A stretch of 37,503 bases of DNA from Acidobacteriota bacterium (GTDB lineage Bacteria > Acidobacteriota > Vicinamibacteria > Vicinamibacterales > JACQTH01). Under the pieces are notes generated by a model. It was given only the letters and a program-made list of their open reading frames with translations, did not search any database and was not told the DNA's origin. The DNA lies in contig JACOUA010000450.1 of the NCBI GenBank assembly GCA_016178075.1, positions 1-37,503 of the forward strand, read 5' to 3'. The position numbers were made by a program, and so were the translations under genes. Below, piece after piece: positions 1-22,383 of this stretch; positions within the stretch are counted from its first letter, which is position 1; each line of letters opens with the position of its first letter.

Positions 1-234
1 AAGTGCGTGGAGATCAAGCGTAACAAGCTGCGCAACGAACGCGAGGTTGCCAATCTCGCGTGCCTGGTGGAGCGTCACCGGCAGGAAAAGTTCGAGGCCG
101 CCGTGCTTGAGGCCGCCAAGCTCTTCGACAACAGTTATGCGTTCGACTACAGCGGCCCCTGGGCGCCCCACAATTTCGTCGACATGGCGCTGGACCTCCG
201 TTCCGCGCACACCCCGGCGCAAGCCCGCCTGTAG
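1..234 (+). CDS. Gas vesicle protein GvpF/GvpL family, C-terminal part (truncated by window edge)
   Basis: Open frame from base 1: ...NEREVANLACLVERHRQEKFEAAVLEAAKLFDNSYAFDYSGPWAPHNFVDMALDL, matching the GvpF/L C-terminal 'YxF.Y.GPW.P.NFV' signature; followed by gvpG and gvpK. Confidence 0.8.
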   Translation, partial: KCVEIKRNKLRNEREVANLACLVERHRQEKFEAAVLEAAKLFDNSYAFDYSGPWAPHNFVDMALDLRSAHTPAQARL

Positions 235-622: not shown

Positions 623-2692
623 GTGGCAGCAGAGACAACATGGAGTCAGCCGAACTTGGAAGCAATAGTTGGAACGGCACCAGTTGTGGACATGCGGCTG
701 CCGCCATTTCTTGGCGCTCTGCCTCCTGGTCTTCTTCTCTTTGGGGGCAAAGGAGGGGTGGGAAAGACCACCTGCGCGACTGCCACCGCCTTGAGGCTGG
801 CCCGGCGGGATCCCGAGCACCCCTATTTGCTGGTCTCCACCGACCCGGCCCACTCGCTGGCTGACAGTGTGGCCGGCTCCACTCTCCCAGCGAACCTCAC
901 GCTTCTCGAACTCGACGCCGACGAACGCCTCGCGGCGTTCAAGGCGGCCCACGGCGCGATACTCAAGGAGATTGCGGCCCGTGGCACCTTCCTGGACGAC
1001 CACGACATCACCCAGTTCCTGAGCCTGTCGCTGCCCGGTCTCGATGAACTGGTGGCGTTCCTGGAGATCGCCGCATTGGTCGAGCGCCGAACCTGGCGGA
1101 CCATCGTCGTCGACACGGCGCCGTGGGGCCACACGCTGCGGTTGCTCCAAATGCCTGCCCTCGTCGGGAGGTGGCTCGACGCGCTGGATGCGCTCCTGGC
1201 CAAGCATCGCTACATGAAGCAGCTCTTCAGCGGCACCTACCGGCGTGACGAGCTGGACTCCTTCCTTTTGGACCTGAAAGCGGCGGTCGACCGCGTCCAG
1301 GGCGCCCTGCGCGACCCGTTTGGATGTTGTTTCGTACCGGTGGCGCTAGCCGAGGCGTTGGGCGTCGCCGAGACCGCAGACCTTGTGCTGGAGCTCCAGC
1401 GGCTGCACGTTCCGGTGACTGACATCCTCGTCAACCGCCTGTTTCCAACCAGTGGCTGTCGGGCGTGTGCGGCGGGACGCGCTCATCAGATGGTTGAGGT
1501 CGAGCGCCTCCGCCGGCGACTACGGGAGTGTCGCCTCTGGGGTATCCCACTCTACCCGCATGAGCCTCGTGGCGCCGAAGGTCTCGCCGGGTTCTGGCAG
1601 GGTGCCGCGCCGCTCACACCGTCGGAGCCGCCTGTTCGCGAAGGCATCGCCGTTGCGCCGCCGATGGTGAACTCTCCGGCGCCGCTGCCGCTCGGCCTAA
1701 CACTTCTGATTTTCGCCGGGAAAGGCGGCGTTGGGAAAACGACACTCGCCTGCGCAACCGCGTTGCGCCTGGCCCGCGAGCGACAGAACGGGAACGTCTT
1801 TCTTTTCTCGACAGACCCCGCTCACTCCCTCTCCGCGTGTCTGGCGAGGCCGGTCGGCGCTGCCCCGACGCGCGTGGGCGACGGACTCACAGCGATGGCG
1901 ATCGATGCCCAGGCGGAATTCGACGCCCTGAAGGCGGAGTACGCAGGGGAATTGGAGCGAACGCTCGCTCGCCTGCTGCCGGACCTCGATCTCCCGTTTG
2001 ACCGGGAGGTGATGGAGCGCATTCTTGATCTGTCCCCACCGGGCGTGGACGAGGTCATGGCGCTCGCTCGGGCCACGGCGCTCATGGACCGGGAGGCCCA
2101 CCAAGTCTTCATCCTGGATGCGGCCCCAACGGGTCATCTGCTTCGGCTTCTTGAAACGCCGGACGTGATCGCACGCTGGCTCAAGGTCGTCTTCGACCTC
2201 TTCCTGAAGTATGGTAGGATTCTGCGGCTTCCTAGGGTTTCCGAGCGGCTAGTGGAGCTCTCTAAAGAGCTGAAGCGATTCCGGGCCCTACTGAGCGACC
2301 CCGCTCGAACGGCCATCTACGTGGTGACCAATGCCACCGAGATGGTGCGCGAGGAGACCGGCGACTTACTGGCGGCTTGCGACCGGCTGCGCATCAGCGT
2401 CCCTGTGTTGTTCGTCAACCTGGTCACCTCGCCCCAGGACTGTGCGCTCTGTTCGGCTTTGAACCGCAGAGAGGCATGCGTCGACCGGCAGCTCAGAAAC
2501 CTCCGTCCCGCGGCCCATGTGACGGTAGTGTTTCGTGGTGCGGAGCCTCGGGGTATGGAGCGGCTCGACGATCTGGGGCGAGCGCTGTACGGCACGAGGA
2601 AGAGACGATGGACGTCCGGTCAATCGAGACGGCGCCGACCCTCAGCGCCCAAGATCGCGTTTCCCTATGCGAGGCGCTCGACCGCGTGCTGA
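623..2692 (+). CDS. Tandem (two-domain) ArsA/Get3-family ATPase in the gas vesicle cluster; start GTG 623 or ATG 692
   Basis: Two deviant Walker A motifs (FGGKGGVGKTT and FAGKGGVGKTT), two STDPAHS switch motifs, DTAPWGH and DAAPTGH, and a CxxC in each half (CRAC, CALC). Confidence 0.85.
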   Translation: MAAETTWSQPNLEAIVGTAPVVDMRLPPFLGALPPGLLLFGGKGGVGKTTCATATALRLARRDPEHPYLLVSTDPAHSLADSVAGSTLPANLTLLELDADERLAAFKAAHGAILKEIAARGTFLDDHDITQFLSLSLPGLDELVAFLEIAALVERRTWRTIVVDTAPWGHTLRLLQMPALVGRWLDALDALLAKHRYMKQLFSGTYRRDELDSFLLDLKAAVDRVQGALRDPFGCCFVPVALAEALGVAETADLVLELQRLHVPVTDILVNRLFPTSGCRACAAGRAHQMVEVERLRRRLRECRLWGIPLYPHEPRGAEGLAGFWQGAAPLTPSEPPVREGIAVAPPMVNSPAPLPLGLTLLIFAGKGGVGKTTLACATALRLARERQNGNVFLFSTDPAHSLSACLARPVGAAPTRVGDGLTAMAIDAQAEFDALKAEYAGELERTLARLLPDLDLPFDREVMERILDLSPPGVDEVMALARATALMDREAHQVFILDAAPTGHLLRLLETPDVIARWLKVVFDLFLKYGRILRLPRVSERLVELSKELKRFRALLSDPARTAIYVVTNATEMVREETGDLLAACDRLRISVPVLFVNLVTSPQDCALCSALNRREACVDRQLRNLRPAAHVTVVFRGAEPRGMERLDDLGRALYGTRKRRWTSGQSRRRRPSAPKIAFPYARRSTAC

Positions 2693-2853
2693 ACAAGGGC
2701 GCGGTGGTAGTGGGTGAGCTTACGATTTCAGTGGCTGACATCGAGTTGATCTATCTCGGACTGCAAGTGGTCATCACATCCATCGAGAAGGCTCGGAGCC
2801 TGGCCACGATCTCAGCCCCGACCGCTCCGGAGGCCGCCGATGGACATCGCTGA
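2608..2853 (+). CDS. GvpA/GvpJ-family gas vesicle protein
   Basis: ATG 2608, 81 aa: 'LCEALDRVLNKGAVVVGELTISVADIELIYLGLQVVITSIEKA', GvpA-family fold signature; start overlaps the ATPase 3' end by 85 nt. Confidence 0.8.
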   Translation: MDVRSIETAPTLSAQDRVSLCEALDRVLNKGAVVVGELTISVADIELIYLGLQVVITSIEKARSLATISAPTAPEAADGHR

Positions 2854-3244
2854 AGCAGCGCCCGAGTCGCAGGCTCTTGACGAGTTCGCCCGTGTGCTGG
2901 AGGACCGGACTTCGTTGTTTCCGCGCCTGGAAGCCCGACGAGAAAGCACGGATGCCGCGGCTGTCCGCGTAGCGGGGCAGCCGGGCGGCCTGAATCTCAG
3001 GCCCGACGACACGAAGAATGGCCTGGGACGCCTGGTCCTGACGCTTATCAAGTTGCTTCACGAGTTGCTGGAGCGGCAAGCGATCCAGCGCATGGAAGGC
3101 GGCGCGTTGACTGAAGCCGAGATCGAGCGACTGGGGACGACGCTGATGCGGCAGGCCGAAGAGATCGAAAGGCTGCGGCGGGTGTTCAAGCTAGAGCGCG
3201 AGGATCTCAACATCGACCTCGGTCCGCTCGGCAAACTCTTGTAG
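2840..3244 (+). CDS. gvpK: Gas vesicle protein GvpK
   Basis: 'GLGRLVLTLIKLLHELLERQAIQRMEGGALTEAEIERLGTTLMRQAEEIERL...LNIDLGPLGKLL' is characteristic of GvpK. Confidence 0.9.
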   Translation: MDIAEAAPESQALDEFARVLEDRTSLFPRLEARRESTDAAAVRVAGQPGGLNLRPDDTKNGLGRLVLTLIKLLHELLERQAIQRMEGGALTEAEIERLGTTLMRQAEEIERLRRVFKLEREDLNIDLGPLGKLL

Positions 3245-3253
3245 AGGTGTGCC

Positions 3254-3628
3254 ATGAATCAAAAGCGGGGTGCGCAGCGTGGGATCGTGCAGTCCGTGCA
3301 GAGCGCCACGCTGGCGGATCTGCTCGAGCGCATTCTGGATAAGGGGATCGTGATTGCGGGCGACATCCGGATCCAGCTCGTTCAGGTCGAGCTCCTGACG
3401 ATCCAGTTGCGTCTCGTGATTTGCTCCGTGGACAAGGCCAAGGAAATGGGGATGGACTGGTGGGTCAACCACCCCGCGTTTGACCGGCATGCCCGGCCCG
3501 AACCCGACGGGCAGCGCCTAGTAGAGCTAGAAGCGCGACTGGCCGCCGTTGAGGAGCAGCGCCTGGCAGAGATGGCCGAGCTAAAAGAGCGACTGACCGC
3601 TGTGAAGGCTGCCGTGGGGACCGCCTAG
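3254..3628 (+). CDS. GvpA/GvpJ-family gas vesicle protein with C-terminal coiled coil
   Basis: 'LADLLERILDKGIVIAGDIRIQLVQVELLTIQLRLVICSVDKAKEMGMDWWVNHPAF' is GvpA/J-family; C-terminal heptad-like region. Confidence 0.85.
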   Translation: MNQKRGAQRGIVQSVQSATLADLLERILDKGIVIAGDIRIQLVQVELLTIQLRLVICSVDKAKEMGMDWWVNHPAFDRHARPEPDGQRLVELEARLAAVEEQRLAEMAELKERLTAVKAAVGTA

Positions 3629-3687: not shown

Positions 3688-4110
3688 ATGATCCAACGCA
3701 TGCGGCAGATCATATGTCGGCACGTCGGTGCGAGAGTGGAGCACGAAACGGGCCGAATGGCGCTGGTTTGCCCGGATTGTGGCTACCGCAGTCCGGGCTG
3801 GGATCTGCAACCAGAACGGCCGCCTAACTACGAGCGTGGGCCACAGGTCTTGACCGCGACCGCCAGCGCCGGGGCTCGCACCCGAGCCGTTGGTGGGAAG
3901 CGGCGAAAGTCCACGCCGCGCGGTTCGCAGCGCTTGGTTGCCGCGGGAGCCGAACCGTCGAAACCCAAGCAGGAGAGATCTTCCTCAAATCAAGCGGCAG
4001 ATGCGGCTTCGGTATCGCAAGTGTCAGGGAAAACAGACGGAACGTCCGCTACTAAGCCGTGCGCCGCTCGCCGACGTAGAGACGATGCGGCCGAATTGAG
4101 GGTGCACTGA
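3688..4110 (+). CDS. Small zinc-ribbon protein (CPDCGYRSPGW), basic low-complexity tail
   Basis: 'ICRHVGARVEHETGRMALVCPDCGYRSPGWDL'; paralogous to the ORF at 5142. Confidence 0.55.
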   Translation: MIQRMRQIICRHVGARVEHETGRMALVCPDCGYRSPGWDLQPERPPNYERGPQVLTATASAGARTRAVGGKRRKSTPRGSQRLVAAGAEPSKPKQERSSSNQAADAASVSQVSGKTDGTSATKPCAARRRRDDAAELRVH

Positions 4111-4505: not shown

Positions 4506-4907
4506 GTGATCAAAAGCATCCCTCCGCGAATCATGTCCGATGTGTGGCGAGAGCGCCGCGCCGGGGCCGGATTCGGCCTGCCGCACGCGGTCAAGTTCGA
4601 ACGTGCAGGGTTTCGGGTCAAGCCGGTGAAGGCACGCTTTCGGTCCGCGTTCGGGCGCGTTCGGGGCCCGGTCGTCGATATCTTCAACGAGCCGGCGGAA
4701 GCCATGATCGTGATTGATCTGGGAGGGTTCAGGAGGACAGAGATTGTGCTGGAACTCACCCCGGGGCAGGCTCTGCTGCGTGCCACAAGGGGGGAGCTGC
4801 AGTTTGAGGAACCCTTCGAGCTGCCACCCGATGTCGACTCTGGGCACCATCGGGAGTTCCTGATCAACGGGGTTCTTCAGATCGTCTTTCCAAAGAAGTC
4901 CGCGTGA
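4506..4907 (+). CDS. Hsp20/GvpH-like small protein; start GTG 4506 or ATG 4533
   Basis: 'GPVVDIFNEPAEAMIVIDLGGFRRTEIVLELTPGQALLRATRGELQFEEPFELP...REFLINGVLQIVFPKK', beta-rich Hsp20/GvpH-like core; cluster context. Confidence 0.6.
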   Translation: MIKSIPPRIMSDVWRERRAGAGFGLPHAVKFERAGFRVKPVKARFRSAFGRVRGPVVDIFNEPAEAMIVIDLGGFRRTEIVLELTPGQALLRATRGELQFEEPFELPPDVDSGHHREFLINGVLQIVFPKKSA

Positions 4908-5141: not shown

Positions 5142-5381
5142 GTGGTGCGGTGGTTGAGCTGTCATTTGTTTCGTCTTCACGAGTACGCCGTGCAGCGGGA
5201 TGCCAGCGGCGTCTTTCTCCACTGCGACCACTGCGGTCACCATTCGACCGGTTGGAAGATCGGTCCAGTCGATCCCCTTGCTTCCCTGTCAGAGCCTCAC
5301 CAGACTCTGCCCCGACCCCCCGGACGAGTGCGGATGCTGCTTTCGGAGCTCGGGCTGATCCACGTCGTCCGCCGCGTGTAA
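5142..5381 (+). CDS. Small zinc-ribbon protein, paralogue of the 3688 ORF
   Basis: 'LFRLHEYAVQRDASGVFLHCDHCGHHSTGWKIGP' parallels the 3688 ORF. Confidence 0.5.
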   Translation: MVRWLSCHLFRLHEYAVQRDASGVFLHCDHCGHHSTGWKIGPVDPLASLSEPHQTLPRPPGRVRMLLSELGLIHVVRRV

Positions 5382-9161: not shown

Positions 9162-11706
9162 GCACGCGATTCCCGTGATCTGCACACCTGGGGGCCGAGT
9201 CTGTCCCGTCCGGGTCCTCCTGTTGTTTGGCGTCGGGCTGGCCCTCTCGACGGCGGCACCCGCGGCGGCCGCCCAGAGCGGTCGCCCAGCGGACGGCGGG
9301 GTGGCGGCAGCTACCCGCGCGCTCAACGAAGGACGCTACGAGGAGGTCGACGCGCTCCTGAAAGCGTCCGCAGACCCGAGGAGCGCAGCGCTTCGGGCTC
9401 GCGCCCTCATCGCGCGCGGACGGTATGCCGACGCGGAGAGCCTGCTGCAACGTCCCGTTGCCGACTCCCCAGCCGGCGACGCGGCCCTCGAGCTCGGTGT
9501 CCTGCAATTCAAGCTGGGGCGCCGGGCTGAAGCGTCGAAGACGCTGACGCCCGTGTTGATCGCGGCTGGCAACGCGACGACAGCCGCCGACCTGACGCGC
9601 GGCGCGCGCGCGGCCCAGCTGCTCGGGGAGTCCCAAAGCGCCAACGACTTCTTTCTCGGGGCGGCGAGGCTGGCGCCGAAAGACGCCTTTCTGAACCTCG
9701 CCTGGGGCGAGCTGTTTCTGACGACGTACAACCGGCAGGATGCCGCGCGCTCGTTCGAAACGGCGCTCGCCACCGACCCGACGCTGGCCGCCGCGCATCT
9801 CGGGCTGGCCCGCGCCGTTGCGGAGGACGACGGGCCGGCGGCGCGGAAGTCAGCCGAACGCGCGCTTCAGATCAATCCATCGCTGTCGAGCGGGCTCCTC
9901 TTCATGGCCGAGCTCGCCATGGACGATGGCAAGCGGGATGAGGCGCGTACGTGGATCCACAAGGCGCTGTCGGTGAACCCGAACGATCCCGAAGCGTTCG
10001 CCCTGCTTGGCGCCATCGCAACCCTCGAGGATCGCCAGGCGGACTTCAAAGACGCCGTGACCAAAGCGCTTGCGGTCAACCCGGCGTACGGCGACGCGTT
10101 CCGGATCGCGGGGCTCCATGCCGCCCGAAACTATCGCTTCGATGAAGCGGTGGCGCTCACCCGGCGGGCGATCGCGCTGGATCAGGACAACCCGCGCGCG
10201 TACGCGGAGCTCGGCATGCACCTGCTGCGGACGGGCGAGGAGAGCGGCGCGCGTCAGGCGCTCGAGCGCGCCTTCCGCGCCGATCCCTTCGACGTGGTCA
10301 GCTACAACCTGCTGAGCATGCTCGACACGCTCGACAAGTTCACGACCATCCGGGAAGGATCGATCACGCTGCGGCTCGATCCCACCGAAGCGCCGATCAT
10401 GCGCGAGTACGTAATGCCGCTCGCGCAGGAGGCCCTGAAGACGCTGTCGGAGCGCTATCAGTTCACGCCGCGCGGACCGATTCTCTTGGAGGTCTTTCCG
10501 AAGCACGACGACTTCGCCGTCAGGAACGTCGGCCTGATGGGCATGATCGGAGCCCTCGGCGCCTGCTTCGGCAAGGTCGTCACGATGGATTCGCCGCGGG
10601 CGCGGCCGCCGGGCGACTTCAATTGGGGCACGACGCTCTGGCACGAGATGGCGCACGTCATCACGCTCCAGATGTCGGGCCAGCGCATGCCGCGGTGGCT
10701 GAGCGAGGGTATTTCAGTCTTCGAAGAGAAGCGCGCGCGGCCCGAGTGGGGACGCGAGATGGACGTCGCCTTCGCGCAGGCGCTCGACCAGGGCAAGGTC
10801 CTGAGCCTTCGGGACCTGAACGCGGGCTTCACCAATCCGCAGACGATCTCGCTCGCCTACTACGAAGCGTCGCTCCTGGTGGACCATGTGATCGCCGCAT
10901 TCGGCGAGCCGTCGCTTCGTAAGCTGTTGTACCTTTATCGCGAAGGCCGGGAGACCGACGAGGCGGTGAAGCAGGCGTACGGCGTCACGATGGATCAGCT
11001 GCAGGCAAGCTTCACGCAGTACCTCGAGAAGATCTTCGGTCCGATGCGCGCCGCGCTGAAGATTCCGGACGGCGTGACCCCCGGGTCGCTCTCGCCCGAA
11101 CAGTTGAAGCAAGCGGCCGCCGACCATCCCGGCAGCTTCCCCCTGCAGATGGCCCTGGGATTCACGCTCAGGAAAGCGGGCGACGCGGACGGCGCGATCC
11201 GCGCGTTCGAGAAAGCCATCGCGCTCGTGCCCCGCGCCGTCGGGGAAGACAGCGCGTACCGGCAGATCTTCGAGATCGCGCGCGAGAAGGGCGACAAGGC
11301 GAAAGCCGCGGGCGCGCTCGAGGCCCTCCTGGCCGTCGATCACACCGACGTGCAGTCCGCGCGCGATCTGGCCGCCTCGGTGGACCCCGCCGCCGATCCG
11401 GCGCGCGCCCGGCTGGCGGTCGAGCGAATCGTGGCCCTCGACCCGTTCGATGCCAACGCGCACGTGGCGCTCGGACGCCTGGCGCTCAAGCGCCGGGAGT
11501 TTCCGATCGCCGTCCGCGAGTTCCGCGCCGCCCTCTCTGGCGGGACGGTGGACCTGGCCGAGGTCCACTGCGATTTGTCCGAGAGCTATCTCCGGAGCGG
11601 CGACAGCTCCCGGGCCAAGCGCGAGGCGATTCGCGCGCTCGAGATCGCCCCAACCTACGAGCGGGCCCAGGAGCTGCTGCTGCAATCGATGGAGGTGCGG
11701 CCGTGA
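9160..11706 (+). CDS. Secreted/periplasmic TPR protein with HExxH gluzincin (peptidase MA-like) domain; true start possibly GTG 9175
   Basis: Signal-peptide-like N-terminus, repeated TPR motifs, 'WHEMAHVITLQMSGQRMPRWLSEGISVFEE'. Confidence 0.8.
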   Translation: MHAIPVICTPGGRVCPVRVLLLFGVGLALSTAAPAAAAQSGRPADGGVAAATRALNEGRYEEVDALLKASADPRSAALRARALIARGRYADAESLLQRPVADSPAGDAALELGVLQFKLGRRAEASKTLTPVLIAAGNATTAADLTRGARAAQLLGESQSANDFFLGAARLAPKDAFLNLAWGELFLTTYNRQDAARSFETALATDPTLAAAHLGLARAVAEDDGPAARKSAERALQINPSLSSGLLFMAELAMDDGKRDEARTWIHKALSVNPNDPEAFALLGAIATLEDRQADFKDAVTKALAVNPAYGDAFRIAGLHAARNYRFDEAVALTRRAIALDQDNPRAYAELGMHLLRTGEESGARQALERAFRADPFDVVSYNLLSMLDTLDKFTTIREGSITLRLDPTEAPIMREYVMPLAQEALKTLSERYQFTPRGPILLEVFPKHDDFAVRNVGLMGMIGALGACFGKVVTMDSPRARPPGDFNWGTTLWHEMAHVITLQMSGQRMPRWLSEGISVFEEKRARPEWGREMDVAFAQALDQGKVLSLRDLNAGFTNPQTISLAYYEASLLVDHVIAAFGEPSLRKLLYLYREGRETDEAVKQAYGVTMDQLQASFTQYLEKIFGPMRAALKIPDGVTPGSLSPEQLKQAAADHPGSFPLQMALGFTLRKAGDADGAIRAFEKAIALVPRAVGEDSAYRQIFEIAREKGDKAKAAGALEALLAVDHTDVQSARDLAASVDPAADPARARLAVERIVALDPFDANAHVALGRLALKRREFPIAVREFRAALSGGTVDLAEVHCDLSESYLRSGDSSRAKREAIRALEIAPTYERAQELLLQSMEVRP

Positions 11707-12509: not shown

Positions 12510-13520
12510 ATGGAGAGTACGCCGAACGCCGCCACCGTCGAGCTCGCTGAAAAGGTCTCGGAGGGCCGGGAGCGCATCCTCGCCAACCTGCGTCGCGTCA
12601 TCGTCGGGCAGGACACCGTCATCGACCAGGTCCTGGTCGCGCTCTTCACCGGGGGCCATTGCTTGCTCACCGGCGTGCCGGGTCTCGCGAAGACGCTCCT
12701 CATCAAGACGCTCGCCGACACCTTGGACCTCTCGTTCAAGCGCATCCAGTTCACGCCCGACCTGATGCCGTCCGACATCACGGGGACCGAGATTCTGGAC
12801 GAACAGTACGGCTCGCGAACGCTGCGGTTCGTGAAGGGGCCGGTGTTCGCCCAGATCATCCTGGCCGACGAAATCAACCGGACGCCGCCGAAGACGCAGG
12901 CCGCGCTCCTGGAGGCGATGCAGGAGTACCACGTCACGTCGGCGGGGCGAACGTATCAGCTCGATCGGCCCTTTTTCGTGCTGGCGACGCAGAATCCGAT
13001 CGAGCTCGAAGGCACCTATCCGCTGCCGGAGGCGCAGCTCGATCGGTTCATGTTCAAAATCGTGTTGTCCTACCTCTCCGAAGACGACGAAGTGACGGTG
13101 GTGACGCAGACGACCGGGTCCGCGCTGCCGGAACTGGAGAGCGTGTTGACCGGCGCGGACATCCTGCAGTTCCAGCAGTTCGTCCGGCATGTCGTCGTGT
13201 CCGACGAGGTGGCGCGTTATGCGGTCAGGCTGGTGACGGCGTCGCGGCCCGGCTACCCACCCAATCTGGACTTCGTGCAGAAATGGGTGAAGTGGGGGGC
13301 GGGCTTGCGCGCGTCGCAGGCGCTCATCCTCGGTGGAAAGGCTCGCGCGCTGATGAGCGGACGCTACAACGTGTCGCTCAAGGATATTCAAGCGCTGGCG
13401 GCGCCGATCCTCCGCCATCGCGTGGTGACCAACTTCTACGCGGAGTCGGAAGGGATCAATCCCGATCGAATCGTCGAGCGCCTGATCGAGGCCGTGCCGC
13501 CGCCCCGGAGCGGCATGTGA
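12510..13520 (+). CDS. MoxR-family AAA+ ATPase
   Basis: Walker A GVPGLAKTL, Walker B ILADEINRTPPKTQAALLEAMQE, 'ATQNPIELEGTYPLPEAQLDRFMF'. Confidence 0.95.
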   Translation: MESTPNAATVELAEKVSEGRERILANLRRVIVGQDTVIDQVLVALFTGGHCLLTGVPGLAKTLLIKTLADTLDLSFKRIQFTPDLMPSDITGTEILDEQYGSRTLRFVKGPVFAQIILADEINRTPPKTQAALLEAMQEYHVTSAGRTYQLDRPFFVLATQNPIELEGTYPLPEAQLDRFMFKIVLSYLSEDDEVTVVTQTTGSALPELESVLTGADILQFQQFVRHVVVSDEVARYAVRLVTASRPGYPPNLDFVQKWVKWGAGLRASQALILGGKARALMSGRYNVSLKDIQALAAPILRHRVVTNFYAESEGINPDRIVERLIEAVPPPRSGM

Positions 13521-14425
13521 CCGCAGGCGCCCGCCCTGGCGAGCTTCAGTTCCTCGACCCCGCGGTCATCAGCCGCATCGGGACGATGGAGCTCAAGGCC
13601 CGGACGATCGTCGAAGGCTTCCTGTCCGGCCTGCACCACAGCCCGTATCGCGGCTTCAGCGTCGAATTCGCCGAGTACCGCCAGTACATCCCGGGCGACG
13701 ATCTGGCGACGATCGACTGGAAGGTGTACGCGCGCTCGGACAGGTACTACGTCAAGAAATACGAGGAGGAGACGAATCTCGAGTGCTACGTTCTTTTGGA
13801 CGTGAGTGCCTCGATGGGCTACCAGTCGCTGGGTGTGACCAAGGTGCAATACGGGTCCTACCTCGCGGCCGCGCTTGCGTATTTGATGAACCGCCAGCGG
13901 GACGCGGTTGGTCTCGTGACGTTCGACGACCGCGTGATCGAGATGCGGCCCGCGAGCGCGCGGCCGGGACATCTTCGGTCCCTGCTGGTGGTCCTCAACG
14001 AGGTGAAGCTCGGTGAGCGCACGAACGTCTCGAAGCCGCTGCACCATCTCGCCGAAGCGTTGGTGAAGCGCGGGCTCATCGTCTTGATTTCGGACCTGCT
14101 GGACGACCCGCAGACCGTGATCGACGGGCTGAAGCACTTTCGGTTCAAGGGCACCGACGTGATCGTCTTTCATGTGCTGGATCACGACGAGCTGACGTTT
14201 CCCTTCGAGCGGCCCGCGCGCTTCCACGATCTGGAGAGCGACGAGGAGGTCCTGGCGGTGCCGAGCGTCGTCCGCGAACACTACCTGAGCGAGATCCGGC
14301 AGATGATCGAGCTTTACACGCGGGAACTAAAGAGCGCGAACATCGACTACTGCCTGCTCGATACGTCCCAGCCGTTGGAGTTTGGCTTGCTCTCGTACTT
14401 GTCGAGCCGCGGCAGGACTTATTGA
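13517..14425 (+). CDS. DUF58 domain protein (VWA-like)
   Basis: GTG start overlapping MoxR stop (GTGA); 'GFSVEFAEYRQYIPGDDLATIDWKVYARSDRYYVKKYEEETN', 'LLDVSASMG'. Confidence 0.9.
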   Translation: MTAGARPGELQFLDPAVISRIGTMELKARTIVEGFLSGLHHSPYRGFSVEFAEYRQYIPGDDLATIDWKVYARSDRYYVKKYEEETNLECYVLLDVSASMGYQSLGVTKVQYGSYLAAALAYLMNRQRDAVGLVTFDDRVIEMRPASARPGHLRSLLVVLNEVKLGERTNVSKPLHHLAEALVKRGLIVLISDLLDDPQTVIDGLKHFRFKGTDVIVFHVLDHDELTFPFERPARFHDLESDEEVLAVPSVVREHYLSEIRQMIELYTRELKSANIDYCLLDTSQPLEFGLLSYLSSRGRTY

Positions 14426-14427
14426 AG

Positions 14428-14505
14428 CTTTCAGCGGTCAGCTGTCAGCTCTCAGTTCTGAGTCTGACAACTGATAGCTGAGAGCTGAGAACTGATAGCT
14501 GAAAG
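14428..14505. repeat. Imperfect inverted repeat built of CAGCTNTCAG-type units
   Basis: CTTTCAGC (14428-14435) ... GCTGAAAG (14498-14505) with internal CAGCTCTCAGTTCTGAG / AGCTGAGAGCTGAGAACTGA. Confidence 0.75.
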
Positions 14506-14522
14506 TCACAGAGTTTTCACCG

Positions 14523-16427
14523 ATGTCGTTCCTATACCCTGCGTTTCTAATCGGCGTGCTGGCGGCGGCGGTGCCGATTGTCCTGCATCTGTTCAGGCGG
14601 GAGGCGGATGTCCGGCTGCCATTCAGCGCCGTCCGGTTGCTGCGACGGGCGCCGGTCGAAGTGGCGCGGCGCCGGCGGCTGCGTGAGCTCATCCTGCTGG
14701 CGCTGCGGGTCGGCGCCCTCGCCCTTCTCGCGCTGTCGTTCGCGCGGCCATTCTTCGTCGGCGGAGCCGCCGCGGTCACGGCCCCGCTGACGCTGGTCGC
14801 CGTCGATACCTCCTACAGCCTCACCGCGCCGGGGCAGTTCGAGCGGGCGTTGGAACTCGCACGTCGTGCCATCACGAACGCGCCGTCCTCGCACCTGGTC
14901 GCGCTGATGTCGTTCGACGACGAGGTGCGGATCGTCGCGGCGCCGGACGCCGCGCGTGGAACTGCCTTGGCCAAGCTGGACGCGATGCGGCCCGAGTACG
15001 GGAGAACGCGGTATCGCGCGGCCTTGAGCCGCGCCGCCGAAGCCTTCGGCAGCCGGCCGGGCAAGCTCGTCATCGTCACGGACCTCCAGCAGGTCGGGTG
15101 GGACGGTGGCGACACGGTGACGTTCGGGAGCGGTGTCGACGTGGACGTCGCCGATGTCGGTCCGCCGGCCGGGAACCTGGCGATCGCTGCGCTTCGGGCC
15201 GAGCAGAACCGCGCGGTGGCAGTCATCCGCAATACCGGGCGCCTTCAGCAGGATGGGCAGGCGCGGCTCGAGATCGACGGCCGACAGGTTGGCGCACTGC
15301 CGTTCACGATCGGACCGGGTAGGTCGGCGACCTTGAGGTTCGAGGCGGGCCTCCCGGCGAGCGGCGTGGCCAGGGCGACGGTGGATGACGCCCACGGGTA
15401 TGTGGCCGACAACGTGCGGTATCTCGTGCTCGATCCGCCCAAGACGCCGATGGTCCTCGCCGTGACCGGGACCAGCACCGCGAGGAGCGACGCGTTCTAC
15501 CTTGATCGCGCGCTGCAGGTGGACGATCAGTCCCGCTTCAGGCTCGAAACCGTGACCGCGTCCACCGTGGCGCGGCTGGATCCCACCACGCTCGGAAAAT
15601 ATTCGGCAGCGTTCCTCCTTGGCAGCCAGGGCCTGGATCTTCGCGGGGCGGAGCAGCTGGCCGGGTTCGTCAAGGCGGGCGGCGGCCTGTTCGTCGCGAC
15701 GGGCCCGCAGTTCGATGCGACGCTGACGCAGGCGCTGTTCGGGGGCGTGGCGTTTCCCGCGGGGTCAGAGGTCCGGAAGGCGCGGACTGAAGCAGTCACC
15801 TTCGTGCCCGTCAACGCGCACCACCCGATTCTGCGTCCCTTCGGGCCGCTGATGAGCACGTTGAGCGACGTCCGCTTTCGGCAGACCGCCGCGTTGCCGG
15901 AGCGCGATGGTTGGCGCGTCGTGGCCAGGTTCAGCGACGGCAAGCCCGCGCTCGTCGAGACGAAACTGGGCGAGGGACGGATTCTCCTGTTTGGATCCGA
16001 TCTGAGCAATCGCGGCAACGACTTTCCGCTGCACCCCGGGTTCGTCCCCGTGATGCACGAGACGGCGCGCTATCTGGGCGCCCAGGACGAACGGGCGGCC
16101 GATCTGGTGCCGGCCGAGCTCCCCGCCGGCATGCCGCGAGCGCCGGGTGTCGTGGAGCTGCCCGTGGGGAAGCGCGCCGCCACAGCAACGGCTCGTCCGG
16201 AACCGCGCCGGGTCGCCGTCAATGTGGACATCAGCGAATCCGAGACCGCGAGGCTGGACGCGAAGCAGTTTGCCGCCGCAATCTCACGCTCGCGCGCGTC
16301 CGCCCGGGAGGTGGCGCGAAACGAGGCGCGGCAGGTCGAGGAGCAGCAGCACCTCTGGCAGTACGGGTTGATTCTGATGATGGCGGCCCTTGTGGCGGAA
16401 GTCGCCGTTGGCAGGACGATGGTCTGA
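14523..16427 (+). CDS. BatA N-terminal domain / VWA protein
   Basis: 'MSFLYPAFLIGVLAAAVPIVLHLFRREADVRLPFSAVRLLRR' BatA signature; 'AVDTSYSL' MIDAS-like; C-terminal TM helix. Confidence 0.85.
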   Translation: MSFLYPAFLIGVLAAAVPIVLHLFRREADVRLPFSAVRLLRRAPVEVARRRRLRELILLALRVGALALLALSFARPFFVGGAAAVTAPLTLVAVDTSYSLTAPGQFERALELARRAITNAPSSHLVALMSFDDEVRIVAAPDAARGTALAKLDAMRPEYGRTRYRAALSRAAEAFGSRPGKLVIVTDLQQVGWDGGDTVTFGSGVDVDVADVGPPAGNLAIAALRAEQNRAVAVIRNTGRLQQDGQARLEIDGRQVGALPFTIGPGRSATLRFEAGLPASGVARATVDDAHGYVADNVRYLVLDPPKTPMVLAVTGTSTARSDAFYLDRALQVDDQSRFRLETVTASTVARLDPTTLGKYSAAFLLGSQGLDLRGAEQLAGFVKAGGGLFVATGPQFDATLTQALFGGVAFPAGSEVRKARTEAVTFVPVNAHHPILRPFGPLMSTLSDVRFRQTAALPERDGWRVVARFSDGKPALVETKLGEGRILLFGSDLSNRGNDFPLHPGFVPVMHETARYLGAQDERAADLVPAELPAGMPRAPGVVELPVGKRAATATARPEPRRVAVNVDISESETARLDAKQFAAAISRSRASAREVARNEARQVEEQQHLWQYGLILMMAALVAEVAVGRTMV

Positions 16428-16440
16428 CCTGACGCGGACG

Positions 16441-16533
16441 TTATCAGTTATCAGTTCTCAGTTGTCAGTAGTTGATGGAACACTGGGTAGCACTGGGAAC
16501 GAGCTGAAAACTGAAAACTGAAAACTGAAAACA
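16441..16533. repeat. Heptad/octad repeats TCAGTTNTCAGT and (CTGAAAA)n, inverted with respect to each other
   Basis: ttatcagttatcagttctcagttgtcag ... gctgaaaactgaaaactgaaaactgaaaaca directly before ATG 16534. Confidence 0.75.
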
Positions 16534-19500
16534 ATGAGTGACGATCTCCTCGCGGTCAAGCTGACGCTCGTGCGGGCCCGCGCCCGCTGGATTCGCCTCA
16601 CGGCGACCAGGGCGGTGGGACGCTGGTCGTCTGCCGTCGCCCTCGTACTGTTCACGGCGCTCATCGCGTATTGGCTGTTGCTGCCCTCGGACGGCTGGTT
16701 GCTGACGCTGGCGGCGATCGCCGTGGCGGTCGCTGCCACGCTCCTCGTGCTGGCCGCGCGCGCCGTCTGGCCTTCGCCCACGAACCGTCAGGTCGCTCGA
16801 TTCATCGAAGAACAGTGCCCCGAGCTCGAAGATCGGCTCGCGAGCGCGACCGACTGCGAGACGTCGACCGAGCTGCGAGGGGTCATGGGCCCGCGCGTCA
16901 TGGCGGACGCAGCCAGTCGGGTCAGGGACCTCGATCTCGATCGTGTCGTGAAACGCGCGGCGATCCACCGAGCCAGCGGCCTGACCGCCGCGGCGGTGGC
17001 CGTCCTGTGCCTCGTCGGCTACGTCGGTCGAAAACCGGCCGCCCGCGCGATTGACCTCGCGTCGCTCTACGCCTTTCCGGGCCACGTCCGGATCGAGGTC
17101 TCACCAGGTCATGTTCGTCTGCCCGCCGGCCAGGCGCTCGTGGTCAGCGCGCGCGTGACGGGCGCGCGCCAGGTCAGCCCCAACCTGGCGCTGGTCAGCG
17201 GGTCGGCGCGTCGCGGTCTGCCCATGCGTCGGGCGACGGATCCCGACAGGTTCGAGATCACGCTGGGCGGCGTCACCGCCGACTTCAAGTACGCCGTCGA
17301 AGCGGGCTCCGCCCGCTCCGCCGTGTACGACGTGACCGTCGTCAACCCGCCCAGAGTCGAGCGGATCGATCTGCGCTACTCGTACCCGAAGGCCTTTGGC
17401 CTCGAGCCGAGGGTCGAGCAGAACGGCGGTGACATCTACGGGCCTGCCGGCACGAAGGTGCAGATCGACGTGCACGCCGACAAAGCCCTGCGGGCGGCCG
17501 CGCTCGTGCTGGCGGACGGCACGCGCGTGCCGCTCTCGACCGGGTCTGGAACGACCGCGCGGACCGAGGTCGAGCTGACCGAGGACACGTCGTACCGGGT
17601 GGCGTTGAACGATCAGGACGGCCTGACGAGTCACGGCGACACGGAGTATTTCATCCGTCTGCTGAACGACCGCCCGCCCGACGTGCGCATCCTGCAGCCG
17701 GCCGGCGACACCCAGGTCACCGCCCTCGAGGAAGTCACGATTGAGGCGCGCGCCGACGATGACCATGGGATCGATCGATTCGATCTGGTCTACGCGGTGA
17801 GAGGGGGGAACGAGAAGGTCGTGCCGTTCCACTTCGATCGATCGCAGCCGACGGCCGAAGGCCGCCAGGTCGTGTTCATGGAGGATCTGGGCGTCAAGCC
17901 CGGTGACTTCGTGACCTATTTCGCGCGCGCGCGCGACGTCAGTCGCGGGAAGCGATCGACCGAAGCCAGAAGCGACATCTTCTTCCTGGAAGTCAAGCCG
18001 TTCGACGAGGAGTTCTCGCTGGCCCAAAGCCAGGCGATGGCTGGCGGCGGGGGCAGCAGCGCGTTCGACGACCTCGCGGCGGCCGAGAAAGAAATCATCA
18101 TCGCGACCTGGAAACTCGATCGCCGTGCGCTCGGCGGGCAGGCGGGGCGATCCGCGGACGATGTCCGGGCGATCGCCAGCGCGCAGGGTCAACTGCGCGT
18201 GAAGACGGAACACGCCGCTCAGGCGCAGGGCGGCCTGAGCGCCGGGCGTCGCCGGCGGCCGCGGGCGCCCGGCGAGGAGCCGACGAACGAGAACCCGCTC
18301 GGGCTGGCGGTCCAGGCGATGACTCGTGCGGAGTCGTCGCTCGGCAGCCTTGACACGAAGGGCGCGCTGCCGCACGAAATGGAAGCGCTCAATCAGCTGC
18401 TGAAAGCCCAGTCGGAGATTCGGCGCTTCCAGATCAGCCGGCAGCAGGCATCTGGCGGGATGGGCGGCTACGGGCGGCAGGGACAGGATCTGTCGGCGCT
18501 CTTCGACCGCGAGCTCCAGCGGCAGCAGCAGACCAACTACGAGAATCCGAACACCTCGGAGCAGCGCCGGGACGACGCGACCAACGACGCGCTCGACAAG
18601 GTCCGCGAGCTCGCCCGGCGTCAGGACGAACTGGCGAAGCAGCAGCAGGATCTGGCGCGTCAGAAAGAGCAGGTCAGCGCTGAAGAACTGAAGCGGCAGC
18701 TCGAGCGGCTCACCCGCGAGCAGAGCGAGCTTCGACGCCAGGCGGAGGAGTTGTCGCAGCAGATGGCCCGGCAACAGAGCCAGGGCCGGGGAGAGGGCAA
18801 GTCAAAATCCGGAGGCGGTTCGAGCGGCCGGGGCGACAACAACGAGAACGGCCGCATGAAAGACATCTCGGAGGAGATGCGCAACGCTGCGAGCGATTTG
18901 CGGCGCGAGGATCTGGAGCGCGCGAGCGAGCGCAGCGGGCGCGCGGGCGAGATGCTACGTCAGCTCGAGCGCCAGCTCGGCGACAAGCAACCAAACGAGC
19001 GGGCGCGGCGCTTGGGCGACGTGCAGCTCGAGGCGCGACAGCTCGCCGACGCGCAGCAGCGTGTCGCGTCGGAAGTGAGCCGGATGACGAAGGGAACCAG
19101 CGCGGACGAGCTCCGCCGGCTGGCCGGCGAGAAAGATCGTCTGGCGGATCGGACCGAGGCGCTGGCCGAGGCGGTCAAGCGCGCGGCCCACGGCATTCGG
19201 GAACCGAACACCCCGAATGCCGAGGCGCAGGCGCTCGGCGATGCCGTGAAGCAGCTGGAGCGCCAGCAGCTCGATCGGCGGATGCGTGAGTCGGCCGGGC
19301 GGCTGAGGACCCAGGGCGAAGCGGCCGCGTCGCAGGGCCAGGGTGAGCCACGGGCAGGGCAGCCGCCGACGCAGCCGCGCGTCAGCGAGGCCGACGCCCG
19401 GAACGAGCAAGAGCTCCTGCAATCGTACGAACGGCTGGCCGATCGGTTGAGCGGCGCGACGAGCCGGCTGGACAAGGATACCGATCGCCTGTCCGACAAC

Positions 19501-20070
19501 ATGGCAAGGACACAGGAGCTGCGGCAGCGCTGGGAGCAGCTTTCACGCGACCAGCAGCGGCTCCGCGATCAGGCCGCGCGCGGTGGGGGACCGGACCAGG
19601 GCGCGAGGCAGTCAGGCGCCGCCTCCGGGCGTGAAGGATCGAGCCAGGGGCCCCCCGGCGGTGCTCGGGGCGGGCGCGAAGGCAGCCAGGGATCCAGCGC
19701 GGGTCCGGGCGGGAGCAACGATCTGGCCCGTCTGCGCGACGAGCAGCAGCGTCAGATGCGCCAGGCCGAAGAGCTCATGGACGAGCTCCGGCAGATGAAT
19801 CCCGGCCTGTCCGGACGCACGCCCGAAGGTCAACAGATGGTGACCTCGGCGCCGGGCACCGAAGCGTTCAAACAGGACTTCTCGAAATGGGATCAGCTTC
19901 GCAAGGCGATCGACGCCGCGCTCGAACAAACCGAACGGAGCTTGTCCCAGAGCCTGCGCGAGCGGCAGGCGAAGGATCGCCTGAACGCCGGTGCGGGTGA
20001 CCACACGCCGGAGCAGTACAGAAAGCTGGTCGAGAAGTACTATCAAGCGCTCGCCGCGAAGAAAAAATAG
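16534..20070 (+). CDS. DUF4175-like large membrane-anchored coiled-coil protein
   Basis: 1178 aa; two N-terminal TM segments, beta-rich middle, long Q/R/E-rich coiled coil, C-terminal 'GAGDHTPEQYRKLVEKYYQALA'. Confidence 0.75.
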   Translation: MSDDLLAVKLTLVRARARWIRLTATRAVGRWSSAVALVLFTALIAYWLLLPSDGWLLTLAAIAVAVAATLLVLAARAVWPSPTNRQVARFIEEQCPELEDRLASATDCETSTELRGVMGPRVMADAASRVRDLDLDRVVKRAAIHRASGLTAAAVAVLCLVGYVGRKPAARAIDLASLYAFPGHVRIEVSPGHVRLPAGQALVVSARVTGARQVSPNLALVSGSARRGLPMRRATDPDRFEITLGGVTADFKYAVEAGSARSAVYDVTVVNPPRVERIDLRYSYPKAFGLEPRVEQNGGDIYGPAGTKVQIDVHADKALRAAALVLADGTRVPLSTGSGTTARTEVELTEDTSYRVALNDQDGLTSHGDTEYFIRLLNDRPPDVRILQPAGDTQVTALEEVTIEARADDDHGIDRFDLVYAVRGGNEKVVPFHFDRSQPTAEGRQVVFMEDLGVKPGDFVTYFARARDVSRGKRSTEARSDIFFLEVKPFDEEFSLAQSQAMAGGGGSSAFDDLAAAEKEIIIATWKLDRRALGGQAGRSADDVRAIASAQGQLRVKTEHAAQAQGGLSAGRRRRPRAPGEEPTNENPLGLAVQAMTRAESSLGSLDTKGALPHEMEALNQLLKAQSEIRRFQISRQQASGGMGGYGRQGQDLSALFDRELQRQQQTNYENPNTSEQRRDDATNDALDKVRELARRQDELAKQQQDLARQKEQVSAEELKRQLERLTREQSELRRQAEELSQQMARQQSQGRGEGKSKSGGGSSGRGDNNENGRMKDISEEMRNAASDLRREDLERASERSGRAGEMLRQLERQLGDKQPNERARRLGDVQLEARQLADAQQRVASEVSRMTKGTSADELRRLAGEKDRLADRTEALAEAVKRAAHGIREPNTPNAEAQALGDAVKQLERQQLDRRMRESAGRLRTQGEAAASQGQGEPRAGQPPTQPRVSEADARNEQELLQSYERLADRLSGATSRLDKDTDRLSDNMARTQELRQRWEQLSRDQQRLRDQAARGGGPDQGARQSGAASGREGSSQGPPGGARGGREGSQGSSAGPGGSNDLARLRDEQQRQMRQAEELMDELRQMNPGLSGRTPEGQQMVTSAPGTEAFKQDFSKWDQLRKAIDAALEQTERSLSQSLRERQAKDRLNAGAGDHTPEQYRKLVEKYYQALAAKKK

Positions 20071-20082
20071 GAGCTCGCTTGT

Positions 20083-20143
20083 AGTTGTCAGTTGTCAGTT
20101 GTCAGTCAGGATGTTGTGAAAACTGAAAACTGAGAACTAAAGA
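20083..20143. repeat. Repeats (GTTGTCA)n and (CTGAAAA)n
   Basis: gttgtcagttgtcagttgtcagtcagg ... gaaaactgaaaactgagaactaaag before ATG 20149. Confidence 0.7.
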
Positions 20144-20148
20144 CTTGC

Positions 20149-22383
20149 ATGATGCATTTCGCCAACCCCCTGCCCTGGTGGGCGGTCGTTCTCCTGGCGG
20201 CCTTCGTTTTGCTGGTCGCCTACGGCGCATACGCGCGCCCGCTGGTCCCGCTCTCGCGGTGGCGGCGGCTCACGCTGTCCGCCGTTCGGGCCGTCGCCCT
20301 GGGGCTGCTCGTGCTGTTCTTGTTGAGACCCGTGGTGTTCGTTCCGCCGCCCCTGGCCCGTGCCGCGATCGTCCCCGTGCTCGTCGACGTGTCGCAGAGC
20401 ATGGCGCTGACCGACGTCGGTGGCCGGCGGCGGATCGACGCGGCAGCCGATCTGGTGAAGACGATCGTTCCGGCGCTGAACCATGAGTTCCAGACCGAGA
20501 TTCTGACCTTCGGCGAGCGTGTCGAGTCCGGCAACGCGTCGACGCTGACGGCACGCGCTCGTCGGACCGACTTGAGCGGCGCGCTGCGCGACCTGCACGC
20601 GCGATACCGCGGCCGGACCGTGGCCGGCATCGTCCTCGTCACCGACGGCGGTGAGACGGGGATCGTGGATCCGGCGCAGGTGGCCCAGGATGGGCCCGCG
20701 GTCTTTCCGGTCGGTGTCGGCAGCCCCGAGGTCGCGCGCGACCGCGAGGTCGTGGCGGTAACGGCAGGCGACGCCGCGATGTCGTCCAGTCTCGTCGACT
20801 TGAACACGACGGCCGTCAGTCATCAGCTCGGTACCGGTCCGATCGAGTTGAGGGTGTTGGCCAACGGGCGTCTCGTGGACATGCGCCGCGTGACGCCGGC
20901 CGCCGACGGGTCGCCAATCAGCGAGAGCTTCTCGGTGTCGCCCGCGTCCAACGCGGCCACCCTTTACACGGTCGAAGTGCCCGAGGCGCCGGGCGAGCTG
21001 GCGCCCGAGAACAACCGCCGCAGCGTGCTGGTGCCGCCCGCGGGTCGGCGGCGGCGCGTGCTGGTCGTCGAGGGCGCGCCCGGCTTCGATCACACCTTCC
21101 TGAAGCGGGCGCTCGCGGCCGATCCCGGCATCGAGGTCGATTCCGTCGTCCGAAAGGGGGCCAACGAGCAGGGACAGCCGACCTATTTCGTGCAGGCCGA
21201 CACCTCGCGCGCCGCGGCGCTCTCGAATGGGTTTCCGGCGTCGAAGGAAGCGGTCTTTGCGTACGATGCCTTGATTCTCGCGAACGTCGAATGGGATTTC
21301 TTTTCGGCGGCGCAGTTGGAGATCGCCGCCGACTTCGTGGGCGAGCGCGGCGGAGGCGTGCTCGCCCTGGGCGCCCGATCCCTTACCGAGCGGGGGCTGG
21401 TGGGGTCGCGCCTCGAAGAAGTCCTGCCCGTCGAGCTGAGCGATCGGCGGGGCGGGCCGGTGCAGATCTCGCACACGATCCTCGATCCCGGCGTCCGGAT
21501 TCAGCAGAACCGGGCGGTGCTGACGCCGGATGGCGTGCGGCATCCGGTCATGCGCCTCGGGCCGACCGAAGACGACACGCGCCGGCGGTGGGAAGCGCTG
21601 CCGGCGCTGTCGGGCAGCGCACCGCTTGGCGACGCGCGGCCCGGCGCAACCGTCCTGGCCGTGACGGGCGGGACGGGCAACGTCGTCAGGCCGCTCGTGG
21701 CCGTGCAGCGCTACGGTCGTGGGCGCTCGATGGTCTTCGGCGGGGACGCGTCCTGGCGCTGGAGGATGATGCTGTCCTCCGACGATCGCACGCACGAGAT
21801 GTTCTGGCGGCAGGCCGCGCGCTGGCTCGCGAGCGGCGCGCCCGACCCGGTGACCATCGCCCCGGTGAGCGGCGCGGCCCCCGGCGATGTCGTGTCGCTC
21901 GACGTGACCGCGCGTGACACCACGTTCGCGTCCGTGGCCGACGCCTCGGTGACGCTTCGGATCGCGCAGCCGGGCGGCGAGGCGCAGGAGCTGACGACGG
22001 CGTTGAGCGATGCGGTCGCGGGGCGCTATACGGCGTCGTTCAAAGTCGATCGCGCGGGGGTGTACCGCGTCACCGCGGAGGCACGGCGCGGCACGACGCG
22101 CCTGGGGACGTCGGAGCAGTGGATCCTCGTTGGAGGCGCGGAGCTCGAAATGTCGGATCCGAAGCTCAACGAAGATCTGCTGCGCCGTGTGGCCATCACG
22201 AGCGGTGGCCGGTATCTGACGGCCGATCGCCTCGCGGACCTACCCCGTCTGCTCGAGCGAACGGCCCCGCCGCCGCCGGCCCCGGAGCAGCGCGACCTCT
22301 GGCACAACGGTTGGAGCTTTGCCGCGATCATCCTGCTGCTGTGCGGCGAATGGACGCTGCGCCGCCGTTGGGGCCTGCGATGA
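20149..22383 (+). CDS. VWA domain / glutamine-amidotransferase-like membrane protein
   Basis: N-terminal TMs, MIDAS 'VDVSQSM', 'RRRVLVVEGAPGFDHTFLKRAL', 'DFVGERGGGVLALGARSL'. Confidence 0.8.
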   Translation: MMHFANPLPWWAVVLLAAFVLLVAYGAYARPLVPLSRWRRLTLSAVRAVALGLLVLFLLRPVVFVPPPLARAAIVPVLVDVSQSMALTDVGGRRRIDAAADLVKTIVPALNHEFQTEILTFGERVESGNASTLTARARRTDLSGALRDLHARYRGRTVAGIVLVTDGGETGIVDPAQVAQDGPAVFPVGVGSPEVARDREVVAVTAGDAAMSSSLVDLNTTAVSHQLGTGPIELRVLANGRLVDMRRVTPAADGSPISESFSVSPASNAATLYTVEVPEAPGELAPENNRRSVLVPPAGRRRRVLVVEGAPGFDHTFLKRALAADPGIEVDSVVRKGANEQGQPTYFVQADTSRAAALSNGFPASKEAVFAYDALILANVEWDFFSAAQLEIAADFVGERGGGVLALGARSLTERGLVGSRLEEVLPVELSDRRGGPVQISHTILDPGVRIQQNRAVLTPDGVRHPVMRLGPTEDDTRRRWEALPALSGSAPLGDARPGATVLAVTGGTGNVVRPLVAVQRYGRGRSMVFGGDASWRWRMMLSSDDRTHEMFWRQAARWLASGAPDPVTIAPVSGAAPGDVVSLDVTARDTTFASVADASVTLRIAQPGGEAQELTTALSDAVAGRYTASFKVDRAGVYRVTAEARRGTTRLGTSEQWILVGGAELEMSDPKLNEDLLRRVAITSGGRYLTADRLADLPRLLERTAPPPPAPEQRDLWHNGWSFAAIILLLCGEWTLRRRWGLR

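Follow-up and report, generated by a model that had tools for sequence, protein, structure and literature searches.

Does the tandem ArsA/Get3-family ATPase encoded among the gas vesicle (gvp) genes of an Acidobacteriota bacterium drive an arsenite pump, or is it a Get3-type enzyme that serves the vesicle itself? We addressed this question in a 37,503-nucleotide stretch of DNA, hereafter the window, which opens at a contig start. Overall, the gene encodes a genuine, well-conserved Get3-type ATPase that is accessory to gvp clusters; enzymes of this kind were reported in 2010, and we provide new evidence on its type, its origin, and its place among the gvp genes.

The association of such an ATPase with gvp genes, which the first-pass annotation of this DNA had pointed out, is not new: it was already published by Castillo and Saier in 2010, who described two-domain ArsA homologues in the gvp clusters of four phyla, recorded the loss of their arsenite cysteines, and proposed that they energize vesicle biogenesis (PMC2963123). 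Their Clusters 4 and 6 share with the window two ArsA domains, a length of ~640 to 690 amino acids, a gvp cluster, and a lack of ars genes. Unlike the evidence assembled here on the window ATPase, their text makes no mention of CxxC or zinc, nor did we see there a separately arisen duplication, a gvp form with one domain, or a tie to gvpF-gvpG (PMC2963123). Our search of the open-access literature returned no paper joining gas vesicles with Get3, and only Castillo and Saier joining them with TRC40. Within searchable open-access papers, four findings look unreported: the CxxC pair of the Get3 type, the separate origin of the duplication, the gvp form with one domain, and the tie to gvpF-gvpG.

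The ATPase and its gene cluster

The ATPase gene spans positions 623 to 2692 of the forward strand, on which all features of the window given below also lie, and comprises 689 codons from a GTG. Its product is a tandem ArsA/Get3 ATPase: PF02374 (ArsA_ATPase) matches it in two stretches with 345.7 bits in total (curated cutoff, 24.3), TIGR00345 (GET3/ArsA/TRC40) matches with 341.3 bits (cutoff, 135), and the N and C halves are 38% identical. The P-loop GKGGVGKT occurs at 746 to 769 (residues 42 to 49) and again at 1718 to 1741 (residues 366 to 373), the switch I motif STDPAHS at residues 72 and 396, and a switch II motif, DxAPxGH, once per half. Both halves keep the catalytic Asp (D74 and D398); the PGxDE motif, P-loop, switch I Asp, and switch II Asp of Get3/TRC40 are all present twice. 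The motif CRAC (1457 to 1468; residues 279 to 282) aligns pairwise with the CKMC of ASNA1/Get3 (6so5), and CALC (2441 to 2452; residues 607 to 610) with the CEFC of archaeal Get3 (3zq6), which places both at the zinc-binding CxxC position of Get3; shuffling the 13 cysteines of the ATPase puts the probability of this double coincidence at ~5e-6. The first-pass annotation had recognized two ArsA/Get3 halves in one polypeptide, placed the P-loop, STDPAHS, and CxxC motifs where we find them, assigned the cysteine pairs to the Get3 zinc position, and set the gene between gvpG and gvpA/J plus gvpK; all of these statements stand, the last of them with Pfam matches for every neighbor.

Translation of the ATPase may begin at ATG 692 instead of GTG 623, since its relatives begin near there and residues 1 to 22 have low confidence in the AlphaFold model. 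At the other end, the last 85 bases of the gene overlap a gvpA/J-type gene that starts at ATG 2608, and the ~30 C-terminal residues (after residue 659) are unconserved and predicted to be disordered. We reject a frameshift or a fusion of the two genes, because what overlaps is a brief, disordered tail running across the gvpA/J start.

The cluster begins with the C-terminal end of a gvpF/gvpL gene cut by the contig start (1 to 234; PF06386, 2.7e-16), followed by gvpG (263 to 577; PF05120, 2.1e-19) and the ATPase. Downstream lie the gvpA/J-type gene in the position of gvpS (2608 to 2853; PF00741, 1.3e-16), which has GGAAGAG upstream of its start codon, then gvpK (2840 to 3244; PF05121, 4.3e-31) and a second gvpA/J-type gene in the position of gvpJ (3254 to 3628; PF00741, 1.1e-17). 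A gene for an Hsp20-like small heat-shock protein (4506 to 4907; NF041800, 7.4e-12, and Pfam HSP20, 0.0056, both below cutoff) probably marks the end of the cluster. Two small open reading frames at 3688 to 4110 (no Pfam or NCBIfam match) and 5142 to 5381 (no Pfam match) have a zinc-ribbon-like motif in common (CPDCGYRSPGW and CDHCGHHSTGW). Farther along, MoxR AAA, BatA/VWA, DUF4175, and VWA genes stand in a row at 12510 to 22383; this MoxR-VWA locus is ordinary and unrelated to the ATPase.

The rest of the truncated gvpF/L gene is probably on a second contig of this genome, C118, whose last 78 bases (L029 [G000:C118], 10057 to 10134) match window positions 1 to 78 with 8 mismatches and a single amino acid change. 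The mismatches probably reflect a strain mixture in the assembly or two copies of the cluster. C118 carries a CDC48-like AAA gene, two gvpF/L genes, a PAS-domain histidine kinase followed by an open reading frame that we judged by eye to be response regulator-like, two gvpA genes, and gvpN. The kinase pair and unassigned open reading frames aside, the combined order would be CDC48-like, F/L, F/L, A, A, N, F/L, G, ATPase, A/J, K, A/J. We infer that the contigs join in this way because they share the gvpF/L stretch and because the same order, gvpA copy number aside, occurs in one piece in three relatives (L034, L038, and the Thiohalocapsa sp. ML1 locus L080). PAS-domain histidine kinases lie between gvp genes at L029:3481-5377, L203:5290-7431, L205:14903-17185, and L195:11698-13893, which suggests sensor-kinase control of vesicle formation.

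A Get3-type enzyme with its own tandem duplication

The arsenite-binding cysteine (C113/C422 of Escherichia coli ArsA, in the context C-x-x-E-I/V-A) is present in 61/61 domains from ars operons and in 0/35 domains from gvp clusters; at that position all 35 gvp domains, both halves of the window ATPase included, have the Gly of PGxDE. Conversely, 21/35 gvp domains have a CxxC at the Get3 position, as do archaeal Get3-like single-domain proteins, against 0/61 ars domains. The window ATPase scores 142.1 bits against TIGR04291, the equivalog model for the arsenical pump-driving ATPase ArsA, far below its cutoff of 650, and we found no ArsB-, ArsD-, or ArsR-like open reading frame in the window. 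Together with the tree described below, these data lead us to reject an arsenite-pump identity, in agreement with the first-pass annotation, which had argued against a pump from the absence of ars genes. Judged by its motifs, the window ATPase is a covalent pseudo-dimer of the Get3 type and no arsenite-pump ATPase.

The first-pass annotation placed too much weight on the CxxC motifs. Both are present in all 16 complete members that we read from the window's class; cyanobacterial members lack them, one group (L031, L032, L044, L056, and L057) has degenerate versions, and only a single Cys is left in Chlorobi. Because it has been lost in several gvp-linked lineages, the CxxC is a feature of the Get3 type and no requirement of the gvp role. 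L034 and L038, the closest full-length relatives within the phylum, have Gly in place of the switch I Asp in the C half (STGPSHS); this half may therefore lack ATP hydrolysis, which would make the pseudo-dimer asymmetric.

The AlphaFold model of the ATPase (pLDDT 80, pTM 0.80; 28-sequence alignment) has two-domain ArsA structures as its top whole-chain Foldseek matches (TM by target, ~0.7), while single Get3 chains match it half by half (TM by target, ~0.7 to 0.8); this ranking does not separate Get3 from ArsA, given that whole-chain ranking favors two-domain targets and that the alignment is rich in pump ArsA. Compared with pump ArsA, the window ATPase has a longer and slightly more hydrophobic helical segment behind switch II; this hydrophobicity is no higher than in the rest of the family, too weak a signal to prove a client groove.

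In a maximum-likelihood tree of 65 domains, gvp N halves, gvp C halves, and the one-domain proteins of Chlorobi form one group (support, 99/93) apart from pump ArsA (100/97), and the gvp N and gvp C halves each group together (98/92 and 98/87). The grouping with pump ATPases that had been set beforehand as refuting was not seen; the gvp clade is separate. A shared origin of the gvp and ars tandem architectures is rejected by the AU test (p = 0.0003 for joined N halves and p = 0.008 for joined C halves), a rejection to be read with caution, as long branches share the pull of the model. The simplest reading of the tree is two independent tandem duplications, one leading to the gvp ATPase and one to pump ArsA. 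The one-domain form of Chlorobi may be ancestral to the duplication or may be a half whose partner was lost (support, 90/70).

Yeast and archaeal Get3/TRC40 align with the window ATPase at the P-loop, at switches I and II, at PGxDE, and at the zinc-type CxxC; Get3, however, is a homodimer of ~340-amino-acid subunits serving tail-anchored proteins, whereas the window ATPase consists of two fused units. Its best PDB sequence match (7.6e-43) is Chlamydomonas ArsA1 (5zme), likewise a covalent tandem Get3, which carries chloroplast tail-anchored proteins and, unlike the window ATPase, has no CxxC. The arsenical pump ArsA (1f48 and 9nbl) shares the two-domain build and overall fold, but the window ATPase differs from it in having the CxxC, no arsenite cysteines, no ars operon, and a separate duplication. 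Get3d of Nostoc and Arabidopsis is similarly a Get3-family ATPase occurring in bacteria; it has no CxxC and ends in an alpha-crystallin domain, whereas the window ATPase has the CxxC and, by Pfam scan, no such domain.

A recurrent but optional gvp gene

The ATPase follows gas vesicle genes closely across genomes. Among 297 genomes of the phylum, 18 of them with GvpK, a strong two-domain match (E < 1e-60) occurs in 12/18 GvpK-positive and 0/279 GvpK-negative genomes (Fisher, 2e-17), and among 193 genomes of the class the ATPase occurs in 18/30 and 2/163, respectively (Fisher, 1.5e-15), P values that overstate independence because the surveyed genomes come from related species. The ATPase gene adjoins gvp genes in all 12 carriers of the phylum, three of which (L051, L056, and L057) have it with gvpF/L-gvpG even though gvpK is on another contig; the two GvpK-negative carriers of the class (L186 and L187) also have it inside gvp clusters, on broken contigs. 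The co-occurrence that the first-pass annotation expected in other gvp clusters is thus borne out in many genomes. The usual position is directly after gvpF/L-gvpG, and the gene often has gvpG on one side and the gvpS/J-gvpK seed genes on the other. Other searches named carriers in Thiohalocapsa, Nostoc, Labilithrix, a deltaproteobacterium, and Chlorobiaceae; the homologue of Nostoc sphaeroides is plasmid-borne, beside gvp. Most of the remaining two-domain relatives found are in ars operons, adjoining ArsD.

Clusters of the same layout also exist without the ATPase: L041, L189, L192, and L193 have the order F/L, G, A/J, K, A/J. L188, which belongs to the genus of the window and comes from a genome that is 74% complete, has F/L, G, F/L, A/J, K, likewise with no ATPase. 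The gene is optional for that reason, a recurrent gvp cassette that is not universally needed. Four clusters with the ATPase (L203, L205, L082, and L084) show no gvpN, the gene of a usual gvp ATPase, in the stretch read.

The gvp clusters of Chlorobi encode the one-domain form (L086:9971-10906, 312 amino acids; L085:4301-5275) after an Hsp20-like gene, and in L086 a CDC48-like AAA gene follows directly. Both Chlorobi and the genome of the window have Hsp20-like and CDC48-like genes alongside the ATPase. Separately, a groundwater deltaproteobacterium encodes a single-domain ArsA/Get3 protein with a CxxC (L120:5995-7251) on an 11.6-kb contig with no gvp gene; this protein is a bacterial Get3.

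A putative chaperone for gas vesicle subunits

By sequence comparison the protein is a Get3-type deviant-Walker ATPase, two Get3 units fused head to tail; the likeliest explanation, to which we give about an even chance, is that it would be dedicated to gas vesicle assembly through a chaperone mechanism. The two halves would close on two ATP molecules, with a base hinge formed by a zinc ion that the four cysteines of both CxxC motifs presumably hold. Closure would create a hydrophobic groove taking up a freshly made hydrophobic subunit, putatively of the GvpA, GvpJ, or GvpS type, probably handed over from GvpF and GvpG, and ATP hydrolysis would release it to a nucleating or growing vesicle.

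Chaperoning of Gvp subunits, the role hypothesized in the first-pass annotation, is our best inference because the enzyme belongs to the Get3 family, stands beside GvpF and GvpG, and co-occurs with Hsp20-like and CDC48-like proteins. In Bacillus megaterium, GvpF and GvpG have been proposed to act on GvpA as chaperones one after the other (PMC11445434); the B. megaterium genes that this assembly study names do not include the ATPase. That hydrophobic proteins can be carried by a covalent tandem Get3 is shown by Cr-ArsA1 of Chlamydomonas, which transports tail-anchored proteins (PMC11170914). The hydrophobic stretch ends 29 residues before the C terminus in the two GvpA proteins, 25 in the first gvpA/J product, and 74 in the longer second one; a stretch 25 to 29 residues from the end would emerge from the ribosome only at about the time translation terminates, the situation of Get3 clients. 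Among the Gvp proteins of this cluster, we found no true C-terminal membrane anchor or tail-anchored client.

The best-surviving rival, unlikely in our judgment, is that the ATPase energizes another step of biogenesis, namely nucleation or remodeling of the GvpS-K-J seed, and is no chaperone of hydrophobic clients, in the general sense of Castillo and Saier. The frequent position of the gene next to gvpS/J-gvpK fits this scenario, as GvpS, GvpK, and GvpJ are proposed seeding factors (PMC11445434), and so do the four clusters read without gvpN; nevertheless, window-like clusters also have GvpN, and the CxxC pair, where kept, fits a clamp.

Less likely again is a redox- or zinc-regulated holdase whose CxxC would sense oxidation and protect vesicle subunits under stress, as in Get3. 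The conservation of both pairs in 16/16 complete class members, the Hsp20-like gene of the window cluster, and the citation in PMC10248533 of Get3 as a chaperone regulated by oxidation speak for it, but several lineages keep the gene in the cluster and have lost the CxxC.

ParA-type genes occur in some gas vesicle regions. A ParA/McdA-like ATPase that spaces vesicles in the cell is nonetheless improbable: the window protein shares the P-loop ATPase superfamily and weakly matches ParA/MinD models, yet at 37 to 46 bits versus 345.7 for ArsA/Get3, and the AlphaFold model and Foldseek indicate a covalent pseudo-dimer with a helical subdomain.

An arsenical pump-driving ATPase merely beside gvp genes, to which the Pfam family name, the two-domain build, and the top whole-chain Foldseek matches would lend themselves, has a negligible probability given the TIGR04291 score, the arsenite Cys missing from both halves, the absence of ArsB, ArsD, and ArsR from the window, and the separation of the gvp and pump families in the tree.

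Implications

Extending the chaperone reading to the family, we propose tentatively, and with somewhat less confidence than for the window ATPase itself, that many bacterial gvp clusters have their own GET-like chaperone. In this scenario a Get3 would have become a zinc-clamped pseudo-dimer by a duplication independent of ArsA and would take shell-type subunits from GvpF and GvpG to a protein organelle, not to a membrane; the one-domain form of Chlorobi would be its ancestral state or a half without its partner.

The labels "anion-transporting ATPase" and "arsenical pump" mislead for gvp-linked genes. Gvp clusters of similar order that naturally have or lack the ATPase allow a direct comparison. 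Gas vesicles, whose shell proteins are tiny and very hydrophobic, serve as ultrasound reporters; if a Get3-type ATPase does part of the work of keeping these proteins soluble and feeding them into the growing structure, the role of the Get3 family would widen from membrane targeting to the assembly of an organelle.
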